Of a stretch of 64,000 bases of DNA, positions 50,903 through 53,022 are shown piece by piece. A program made the position numbers and the translations under genes. Origin of the DNA: Acidobacteriota bacterium (GTDB taxonomy: Bacteria > Acidobacteriota > Terriglobia > Bryobacterales > Bryobacteraceae); NCBI GenBank assembly GCA_029776225.1, contig JAKOTR010000011.1, forward strand, positions 248,001 to 312,000. The letters run 5' to 3'. How positions within the stretch are numbered: the first letter of the stretch is position 1; the number at the start of each line of letters is the position of its first letter. The notes beneath the pieces are model-generated. The model had not been told where the DNA came from. It did no database searches and saw only the letters and a program-made list of their open reading frames with translations.

Positions 50903-50970
50903 CCGCGCGCTTCACGGGTCTCGCGAAGCAGCCGTTGAGTTTTCCTTGCCCGGGTGGTATTCTGTTCTCG

Positions 50971-51038
50971 AACGTGGATTGATTTAGAGCCTGAGGGCTC
51001 GGCTACTTGCAACCACGTCAAAAAAAAGTGCTAAAGGC
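50971..51038 (+). promoter_or_regulatory. Candidate SAM-II/SAM-V family riboswitch aptamer
   Basis: P1 stem ACGTGG (50972-50977) pairs with CCACGT (51013-51018). The loop contains GATTTAG (50981-50987), a small hairpin GAGCC-TGAG-GGCTC (50987-51000) and CTTGCAA (51006-51012) just before P1 closes. An eight-A run (51020-51027) and GTGCTAAAGG (51028-51037) follow. P1, GATTTA, CTTGCA and GCTAAA in this order are the conserved marks of SAM-II and SAM-V riboswitches as I remember them. TTTAG in the loop is complementary to CTAAA at 51031-51035, giving the required pseudoknot. The extra loop hairpin is not typical. No covariance search was run. Confidence 0.72.
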
Positions 51039-51094
51039 GGAGTCGGTCAATCATGATGCAACCCTGTGGCCTTTAGCCCAGGGTTTTGCTTTTT
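51031..51094 (+). terminator. Switchable intrinsic terminator (expression platform)
   Basis: Terminator: ACCCTG (51061-51066) and CAGGGT (51079-51084) with inner GGC/GCC, then TTTGCTTTTT. Competing pairing: CTAAAGGC (51031-51038), part of the aptamer, is perfectly complementary to GCCTTTAG (51069-51076) in the terminator. If SAM holds CTAAA in the aptamer, the terminator forms; without SAM, CTAAAGGC can open it. This is inference from complementarity. Confidence 0.65.
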
Positions 51095-51139
51095 GGGGCC
51101 GATTGCGCTACTAGCCCGTGCGCAAGCACTGGAGGTACT

Positions 51140-51541
51140 ATGAGCGTTCGGCCCGAAAGCAGCGGGGGAGGATTCTCCCTGCGCGGAAGCGAAGGCGAAC
51201 TGGTAATCGTGCGGATCGCGGTTGAACCGCGGCTGCTCGAGCGGTTGCTGGACGTCCTCGCCCGGCTTGATTTCCCTATTAACCCCCAGATCTATCACGA
51301 CGCTGAACGAGTCTATGTTGATTCCGACGGCGTGGAGAGGGTGGCGCCAGCCGCCGTCGTGGAGTTCCCGGCCTGGGCCGCGAGGATGGAGGCGGTTCGT
51401 GAGGCGCTCGATCGCGAGGGTCTGAACGGGGCGAACCTGACAGTCCGGAATATGTTCGAGGACATACGCTCCGATTCCCGCGAATTGCCCGCTGCTCCCG
51501 GCGCAACCGTGGTGAGATACCGCGCCGTTCGCGTCGCCTGA
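51140..51541 (+). CDS. Unrecognised 133-residue protein behind the riboswitch
   Basis: Start ATG 51140 has a strong ribosome site (GGAGGT, 5 bases spacing). The protein is soluble, without signal peptide, membrane segment or Cys. The first 14 residues are Gly/Ser-rich; the next part predicts a beta-alpha-beta unit (LVIVRIAVEPRLLERLLDVLARL), followed by FPINPQIYHD and a Val-rich strand (RVYVDSDGVERV), then an alpha helix (AWAARMEAVREALDREGL). The pattern recalls a small ACT-like or ferredoxin-like fold, but I cannot name a family. The gene is the first one after the riboswitch and 56 nt before the Memo/AMMECR1 gene, so it is probably under SAM control. Functional clues are absent. Confidence 0.75.
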   Translation: MSVRPESSGGGFSLRGSEGELVIVRIAVEPRLLERLLDVLARLDFPINPQIYHDAERVYVDSDGVERVAPAAVVEFPAWAARMEAVREALDREGLNGANLTVRNMFEDIRSDSRELPAAPGATVVRYRAVRVA

Positions 51542-51597: not shown

Positions 51598-53022
51598 TTG
51601 GAGGCTGCTGCCGCTCACGAGTCCCCGTACAGCGGATCCTGGTATCCGGGCCAGCCTTCGGCCCTTCAAGAACTTCTGGACGAGTTGTTTCAGAACTCGG
51701 CGCAACGGACCGGCTCCTGCCTGATCCCGCATGCCGCCGGGTTCGTTGTTCCCCATGCCGGGCTGGCTTACTCCGGCGTGGTCGCGGCGGCAGCGTACCG
51801 CCACATGGAAGCGGCGGGGACCCGTCGCGTAGTGCTCCTGGGGTTTTCGCACCGCGGCGCGGCGCCGGGAGTGTGGATCCCCGAAGTCGAGCGCTTCCGG
51901 ACTCCGCTCGGCGAGGTCGCGGTGGACCGCGAAGCTGTTTGCCAACTGCTGGCGGGCGGGGTCTTCCGCAGCATGCGCGAATCGGCGCTGTGCGACCACT
52001 CGATCGAAATCCAGCTCCCCCTGTTGCAACGGGCAGTGCCGGACGCGGCGGTGGTTCCGGTCTATGTCAGCAGGCTCGGCCCTGAGGCGCGCACCGAAGC
52101 TGCGCGATGCCTTGCGCCCCTCCTCGAACCCGGTACGGTGCTGATGGCCAGTTCGGACCTTACGCACTACGGCCGTGCGTTCTCTTACGAGCCCTTTCCA
52201 GCCGACCGCAGCATCTCCCAGCGGCTCCGCGAGCTGGACGAAACGGTGATCGAAGCCGCGGGCAGCCTCTCTCCGGAATTCTTTCTGGAAACGCTTCGTA
52301 GCACTTCGGCAACCGTCTGCGGTTACGAGCCGATCGCGCTTCTGTTAGAGACACTGGCCTGGCTCCACGATGGCGAAATTTTCCAGGAAACACTGGATTA
52401 CCAGACCTCGGGCGAGATCACGGGCGATTTCCACCACTCGGTCAGCTACGGAGCGCTGGGGTACTTCCCCTACCGGGCTTTCGAACTCGGGGAGGAAGAC
52501 CAGGGGCTGCTGCTGGAAAGCGCGCGGCGGACCCTGGATCACTATCTGCGCACCGGCGAGCGCAAACCGATTCCGCCGGAACGGCTTACGCCCGCTCTCA
52601 AACGGCCCGCCGGGGTATTCGTGAGCTTGCATTCCGGGGGAAACCTGCGGGGCTGCGTGGGACGTCGCGCGTCCCGGGAGCCGCTCTGGGAGGCGACGCC
52701 TGAGGTCACTTTGTCAGCGGCCCTTGAGGATAGCCGCTTCCGGCCGGTGCGTCCGGGCGAGAAAGGGCTGGAGCTGGAGATTTCGGTCCTGTCGCCATTC
52801 AAGCGGCTCCCGAACCTGGATGGTTTCCGTGTGAACGAGCACGGGGCGCTGCTGGACGCAGGCGGTTACCAGGGCCTGCTGCTGCCGCAGGTAGCCACGG
52901 AACGGAACTGGACCGCCCAGCAGTTTTTGGAAGCCCTGGCCCGGAAAGCCGGCGCCAGCTACGCCGCGTACAGCGAGCCGTCCACGAAGGTCTATGTCTT
53001 CCGGGCACAAGTGATCCGGTAA
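51598..53022 (+). CDS. Fused Memo family + AMMECR1 protein (AmmeMemoRadiSam components B and A)
   Basis: Start TTG 51598 has GAGGAG upstream. Residues about 1-290 are the Memo domain: SPYSGSWYPG, FVVPHAGLAYSG, GFSHRG, CDHSIEIQLPLLQ and ASSDLTHYG are its conserved dioxygenase-like motifs. Residues about 300-474 are AMMECR1 (SLHSGGNLRGCVGR, LELEISVLSPF, QGLLLPQVA). In many genomes these two occur beside a radical-SAM enzyme as the AmmeMemoRadiSam system; here they are one polypeptide and no radical-SAM gene is in the window. Memo has been linked to iron/copper binding in eukaryotes; the bacterial role is unresolved. Expression may depend on the riboswitch 600 nt upstream. Confidence 0.93.
   Translation: MEAAAAHESPYSGSWYPGQPSALQELLDELFQNSAQRTGSCLIPHAAGFVVPHAGLAYSGVVAAAAYRHMEAAGTRRVVLLGFSHRGAAPGVWIPEVERFRTPLGEVAVDREAVCQLLAGGVFRSMRESALCDHSIEIQLPLLQRAVPDAAVVPVYVSRLGPEARTEAARCLAPLLEPGTVLMASSDLTHYGRAFSYEPFPADRSISQRLRELDETVIEAAGSLSPEFFLETLRSTSATVCGYEPIALLLETLAWLHDGEIFQETLDYQTSGEITGDFHHSVSYGALGYFPYRAFELGEEDQGLLLESARRTLDHYLRTGERKPIPPERLTPALKRPAGVFVSLHSGGNLRGCVGRRASREPLWEATPEVTLSAALEDSRFRPVRPGEKGLELEISVLSPFKRLPNLDGFRVNEHGALLDAGGYQGLLLPQVATERNWTAQQFLEALARKAGASYAAYSEPSTKVYVFRAQVIR

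Follow-up and report, generated by a model that had tools for sequence, protein, structure and literature searches.

A SAM-II long-loop leader predicted to attenuate transcription of an orphan PII/CutA-like gene in Bryobacterales

The 64,000-nucleotide stretch of DNA analysed here (the window, numbered from its first letter; the parts of the leader and its target gene lie on the forward strand) contains a leader that, on sequence grounds, is a genuine SAM-II member with an orphan target. The favoured reading, held at a probability of roughly 0.85, is that this long-loop SAM-II leader attenuates the transcription of one small gene with a PII/CutA-like product, SAM binding and switching both being predicted. 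Attenuation by SAM-II is already known; as far as the open-access literature shows, what is new is the distribution in Bryobacterales together with a near-exclusive association with an orphan gene of PII-like type, and no report of SAM-II in Bryobacterales or of the target gene was found in that literature.

Aptamer class and conserved structure

A first-pass annotation had described the leader as SAM-II/SAM-V-like and had proposed a covariance-model search, which was carried out as a 301-nt scan against all 4227 Rfam families. This returned a significant match to RF01726 (SAM-II, long loop) at 50968-51044, with 38.4 bits and an E value of 4.8e-6, although the score falls under the gathering score of 44 for this family. 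The element is not listed in a default Rfam scan of the window because of that curated cut-off. In the whole 5.18-Mb genome it is the sole RF01726 match up to E 10 (E 2.0e-5), and the orthologous leaders of two related genomes, G003 (46.3 bits) and G006 (44.0 bits), attain the gathering score. The SAM-II half of the earlier description is thus upheld by the covariance model and by the orthologous leaders. The SAM-V half, presumably RF01826 in Rfam, is rejected, with no covariance-model match up to E 10 among the three matches of the 301-nt scan. The alpha-proteobacterial SAM-II model, RF00521, gives the window leader 16.2 bits against a gathering score of 36. A separate RF00521 match elsewhere in the same genome (L001, G000:C104:34634-34713) scores 24.9 bits, with the cut-off again at 36.

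The elements named in the first-pass annotation were all found where it had placed them. P1 is formed by CGTGG (50973-50977) and CCACG (51013-51017), as seen in the sequence, in the RF01726 alignment and in the MFE fold, and it encloses GATTT...TTGCAA, with the A-rich linker and GCTAAA following. The conserved GATTTAG (50981-50987), the core GCTA[A/C]TTGCAA (51002-51012, with CTTGCA at 51006-51011), the A-rich linker (51020-51027) and GCTAAA (51030-51035), which provides the 3' strand of P2, all align with RF01726 and are conserved in an alignment of related leaders (A3). TTTAG at 50983-50987 would supply the 5' side of the P2 pseudoknot, being complementary to CTAAA at 51031-51035. In the MFE fold of the window leader P1, the loop hairpin and the terminator described below are formed; the antiterminator is absent, as is the pseudoknot, which the folding program cannot model.

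According to the available text of Weinberg et al. 2010 (PMC2864571), RF01726 has the same order of P1, GATTT, TTGCAACC, A-rich linker and GCTAAAG, together with an enlarged loop 1. The same text lists the family for Bacteroidetes and marine sequences, whereas the elements found here are mostly acidobacterial, and from Bryobacterales where labelled.

Related leaders were assembled into a set of 101, reduced to 89 after 11 duplicates and G027, which the DNA pattern had missed, were dropped; a non-redundant acidobacterial set of 67 leaves out a further 22 that are non-acidobacterial or truncated. Alignment A3 holds 63 of 68 leaders (L068, L110, L142, L144 and L150 are left out). The first-pass annotation had looked to such an alignment for compensatory changes. 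The parts of the aptamer are indeed conserved in relatives, but P1 is nearly invariant in A3, most of whose leaders were chosen by a pattern containing P1, and the P2 pairing UUUAG:CUAAA, present in the window, is nearly invariant across leaders as well; covariation is therefore uninformative for either helix.

The hairpin within loop 1 (GAGCC-TGAG-GGCTC, 50987-51000) is predicted by the MFE fold and is a feature of the long-loop form. All six of its consensus pairs show changes on both sides that keep the pair among the 63 aligned leaders; per pair, compensatory changes occur in 6 to 21 leaders and broken or gapped pairs in 3 to 16, and two leaders (L092 and L150) have no such hairpin. The earlier view of this hairpin as not typical of the class is overturned, since RF01726 is itself the long-loop SAM-II family and the hairpin covaries. 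Among the column pairs tested, the highest mutual information in the 63 leaders links column 8 (50979) with column 48 (51006), where TA is found in 32 leaders, GC in 17, TC in 6 and other combinations in 8; the window has a T-C mismatch at this position.

Promoter and expression platforms

The leader has its own sigma-70-like promoter at 50935-50963, consisting of a -35 element TTGAGT (50935-50940), a 17-nt spacer and an extended -10 element TGgTATTCT (50955-50963), and ending 9 nt before P1. A generic promoter scan of the window, which requires 9 of 12, does not list it; the window scores 8. Across the 67 leaders the best score averages 6.97 of 12, compared with 3.40 in 100 mononucleotide-shuffled sets (sd 0.33, maximum 4.16), and the -10 element lies 8-9 nt from P1 in 41 of them. 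The motif is absent from three of the 67 (L075, L085 and L123). These three are acidobacterial SAM-II leaders preceding ORFs of about 200 aa that score below 8 bits with the profile of the target protein and have no Pfam match.

The aptamer is followed by an intrinsic terminator at 51060-51094, with a stem of AACCCTG (51060-51066) and CAGGGTT (51079-51085), then TTGCTTTTT, with the U-rich tail reaching 51094. A generic terminator scan of the window does not list this hairpin. With a finder purpose-written for this analysis, a hairpin with a U-rich tail is recognised in 55 of the 67 leaders, against 16.0 in 20 dinucleotide-shuffled sets (sd 3.3, maximum 21). In many of these 55 leaders the aptamer's GCTAAAGGC has its complement in the terminator loop, as GCCTTTGGC, as GCCTTTAGC or as a sequence close to these. 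In the window, the putative antiterminator comprises 9 bp between GCTAAAGGC (51030-51038) and GCCTTTAGC (51069-51077), and competes with both P2 and the terminator; the first-pass annotation had noted the pairing correctly but had given its length as 8 nt.

A swap control and nascent-RNA folds both bear on the antiterminator. The mean duplex energy is -12.28 kcal/mol with the leader's own partner, -11.41 with swapped partners (0 of 5000 permutations) and -7.99 with shuffled loops. Because most complementary positions are invariant, the swap effect is small, at 0.87 kcal/mol, and another leader's loop frequently pairs better than the leader's own (mean row rank 0.467). Conservation makes up most of the effect, and kinship among the leaders inflates this swap test and the one for the outer helix given below. 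When the RNA is folded only as far as the terminator loop, the mean pairing probability of the antiterminator is 0.96 for the window and averages 0.61 over the 55 leaders. It is part of the minimum-energy nascent fold in 45 of the 55, whereas 30 rounds of platform shuffling gave a mean of 15.4 (sd 2.8, maximum 22), and is lacking from that fold in the other 10. The terminator/antiterminator switch that had been suggested from the window is thereby supported by conservation, by the shuffle control on the terminator, by the swap control and by nascent-RNA folding.

An outer helix (51037-51048 with 51097-51108) can be drawn around the terminator and the U-tract. Its formation would be possible only after read-through. 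It is supported in related leaders, with a mean duplex energy of -15.35 kcal/mol for own partners and -13.50 for swapped ones (0 of 5000 permutations as low, kinship being uncontrolled).

A different layout is seen in five of the 67 leaders (G006, L124, L138, L142 and L144), in which the Shine-Dalgarno (SD) sequence lies inside GCTAAAGGAG near the start codon and no terminator is recognised; in seven others (G015, G019, L094, L097, L133, L143 and L147), neither a terminator nor an aptamer SD was recognised. The set shows one aptamer-gene pair coming with two expression platforms, namely a terminator or an SD within the pseudoknot strand. Judged from sequence and folds, both layouts imply that the gene is OFF at high SAM.

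Both platforms have counterparts in known systems. SAM-II aptamers often have predicted terminators 3' of them, according to the available portions of PMC2258182 and PMC9373788, and for metZ of S. meliloti the available portion of the latter predicts, as is proposed here, that SAM binding permits an intrinsic terminator. The metZ element differs in that it is an alphaproteobacterial SAM-II serving a methionine biosynthesis gene. The translational SAM-II of the Sargasso Sea type, with the SD in the pseudoknot (PMC9373788, same portion), resembles the five related leaders with GCTAAAGGAG before the start codon, and is unlike the leader in the window.

A mechanism can be proposed for the window on this basis. 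RNA polymerase would start just upstream of P1. At low SAM, the aptamer strand GCUAAAGGC would be free to capture GCCUUUAGC in the terminator loop, and the resulting antiterminator would block the terminator, allowing the 133-aa gene to be transcribed. At high SAM, the ligand would stabilise the P2 pseudoknot (UUUAG:CUAAA), making GCUAAA unavailable, so that the terminator hairpin could form and transcription would halt at the U-tract. The PII/CutA-like product would be made at low SAM, where it probably serves methionine/SAM homeostasis.

Linkage of the aptamer to the target gene

The target gene (51140-51541) encodes a 133-aa protein and is preceded by a Shine-Dalgarno sequence, GGAGG, at 51131-51135. 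In a set of 61 genomes, RF01726 matches were found in 22, comprising 21 of the 37 genomes of the window's family and one genome of another family (G058). A separate search with the 133-aa protein picked out exactly these 21 family genomes, and nothing in the 24 from outside the family. In G058, a 48.6-bit RF01726 aptamer (L010/L072) lies in front of a 1058-aa ORF with the look of a TonB-dependent receptor, possibly a target for the uptake of methionine or a cofactor.

A covariance model (R1) built from the 63 leaders and a profile built from 21 proteins were each used to search 150 genomes of the family. There are 98 RNA matches in 97 genomes and 98 protein matches in 96, with both in 93. R1 was trained on leaders of the same lineage, and the RNA matches are thus partly by construction; the adjacency is not, because leader selection relied on an RNA or DNA pattern and took no account of the gene. 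An aptamer lies 8-156 nt upstream of the gene (median 97) in 94 of the 98 cases. The first-pass annotation had remarked that the downstream gene is not a known methionine gene, which is correct, and the gene proves moreover to be the regular partner of the aptamer in the window's family.

The exceptions on both sides are few. Four aptamers are without the gene, one (G110) at a contig end and three (G020, G141 and G161) that are weak, at 28 bits. In the elements of G020 and G141 (L207 and L208), P1 and the terminator remain while the aptamer core and the target gene are lost, and these look like decayed relics. Four protein matches lack an aptamer: in G152 the gene lies behind another gene, in G089 it is a second copy, and the remaining two are in G022 (E 4.3e-4) and G112 (E 5.3e-5). 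The matches in G022 and G112 lie antisense to an ORF that reads as gatB and are rejected as chance. In G067 (L210) the gene is intact and the aptamer has lost its 5' part; SAM-II control of this copy has probably been lost.

In a phylum sample of 297 genomes, at least three of which are listed as members of the window's family, the protein is present only in the window's own genome. Among the neighbourhoods listed, no conserved gene order was seen beyond the aptamer-gene pair itself. Directly 3' of the target gene in the window, at 51598-53022, MEMO and AMMECR1 domains (AmmeMemoRadiSam B and A) are fused in one ORF, and an ORF of the MEMO/AMMECR1 type follows the target gene in only some of the relatives whose neighbourhoods are listed.

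Other partners of the aptamer and the likely ligand

A DNA-pattern scan of named genomes gave at least 119 stretches and at least 80 loci. The 80 loci listed are mostly from Bryobacterales and other Acidobacteria (as labelled), then from Bacteroidetes, with two Gemmatimonadota-like loci and one from Nitrospirae. The downstream gene is the target gene in 53, metK in 19 (by start motif) and a homocysteine S-methyltransferase/MTHFR in two; the rest are three ORFs, each around 200 aa and with only a weak profile match, and three loci cut off by the end of a contig or record. In the window an orphan PII-like gene stands where these 19 loci have metK. Pfam confirms metK in both loci tested (L099 and L100) and the combination of S-methyl_trans and MTHFR in the one tested (L132).

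Further elements were found in the phylum sample of 297 genomes, where two RF01726 matches apiece occur in six acidobacterial genomes that do not belong to the window's family. The ORF behind each of these 12 elements has, by reading, a homocysteine-methyltransferase-like N terminus (for L223, this is the second-longest ORF). Pfam assigns S-methyl_trans and MTHFR to one of the three tested (L212), and S-methyl_trans with a pterin-binding domain, a MetH-like arrangement, to the other two (L213 and L222). The presence of metK and homocysteine methyltransferase genes behind the same aptamer type elsewhere supports SAM as the ligand, which on gene context is the likely assignment.

The methionine synthases of the host genomes show no clear link with the target gene among 37 genomes, 23 of them from the window's family. 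The metH model has a match in all 37 (31 over the cut-off); the metE model is over the cut-off in three, with a match of any kind in 21. SAM-I (RF00162) occurs in one of the same 37 genomes (G017), a single case that is without the SAM-II pair.

The target protein

No Pfam or NCBIfam family matches the 133-aa protein, and a search of PDB sequences with the protein profile gave no credible match. Two AlphaFold2 models, with pLDDT values of 83.7 and 84.8, predict a beta-alpha-beta-beta-alpha-beta arrangement with a ferredoxin-like fold. Structure comparison is led by PII/CutA entries, with ACT domains and others among them, and the best VIA results are Z 9.9 (3ce8, 3.3 A over 86 residues) and Z 9.4 (5ds7_A, 2.4 A over 75 residues), the former being not far over the 7-8 that the tool gives as typical for models lacking a clear match. 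With Foldseek the best E values are 1.9e-3 and 1.7e-3, and none reaches 1e-3. Given these E values and the modest Z of 9.9, the result is to be read as a likeness of fold and not as proof of kinship. The models suggest that the target protein resembles the PII/CutA superfamily; its predicted fold is like that of PII/CutA-like proteins (CPII, GlnK, PstA, SbtB, CutA1 and DUF3240) and of PII-fold SAM lyases, with which it has no sequence-family match.

An alignment of 61 homologues (A4) was made from 52 homologues (53 in the 80 loci listed) and the earlier 21, after removal of 11 duplicates and of L068, a fragment. The beta2-beta3 loop is very short in many homologues, one of which, L058, is compact at 99 aa, and no invariant Glu is present in this (T) loop among either the 61 or the 21. 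The sole invariant Glu of the homologues is E34, in helix 1.

Alternative explanations

Three other explanations have been weighed against SAM-dependent attenuation of a PII/CutA-like gene. The aptamer might keep the SAM-II fold and answer to a related compound (SAH, MTA or another adenosyl compound), to which the gene would then respond. Riboswitch variants with altered ligands do exist, as the available part of PMC10853860 describes, and, in contrast to the genes paired with the aptamer elsewhere, the target does not encode a methionine enzyme. Against this, the core letters of RF01726 are retained in the window, and in other phyla metK and homocysteine methyltransferase genes stand behind leaders of the same core sequence. 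A change of ligand is improbable. Somewhat less probable again is that the leader works in trans as a transcribed small RNA with its end at the terminator, its place before the gene being secondary. The leader's own promoter and terminator would suit such an RNA, and in S. meliloti SAM-II leaders give rise to sRNAs that contain the riboswitch and accumulate (PMC9373788, in the portion available). Yet the aptamer stays directly 5' of the same gene in 94 of 98 cases while the other neighbours change in the neighbourhoods listed, and no terminator is recognised in those leaders whose aptamer contains an SD.

The predicted fold raises a further explanation, in which the gene product would itself degrade SAM, as an enzyme akin to the PII-fold SAM lyases, with the gene turned ON at high SAM; the phage SAM lyase and the SAM-AMP lyase share a PII-like trimeric fold, according to the accessible parts of PMC7877911 and PMC12255297. 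This is the least probable of the three, and very improbable in its own right. Both expression platforms point to a gene that would be OFF at high SAM, which is ill-suited to an enzyme that degrades SAM, and the catalytic Glu that these sources, as far as available, place in the beta2-beta3 (T) loop of the lyases has no invariant equivalent there in the homologues.

Implications

Attenuation of a PII/CutA-like gene by a SAM-II leader leaves room for a broader and more tentative proposal, which is rather less likely than not. In Bryobacterales, SAM-II may no longer control methionine genes directly. Its one detected target would be a new, lineage-restricted branch of the PII fold, a transducer of SAM/methionine status that acts on enzymes or transporters, and an RNA sensor would thereby pass its signal to a protein sensor. 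SAM, SAH, MTA or ATP are candidates for an adenosyl ligand that this protein might bind in clefts of its own. Riboswitches point to gene function, and the almost one-to-one association of SAM-II with an orphan protein in this soil lineage predicts a role for that protein in methionine/SAM homeostasis. The PII-like fold, if true, would make the target protein a regulator and not a pathway enzyme.
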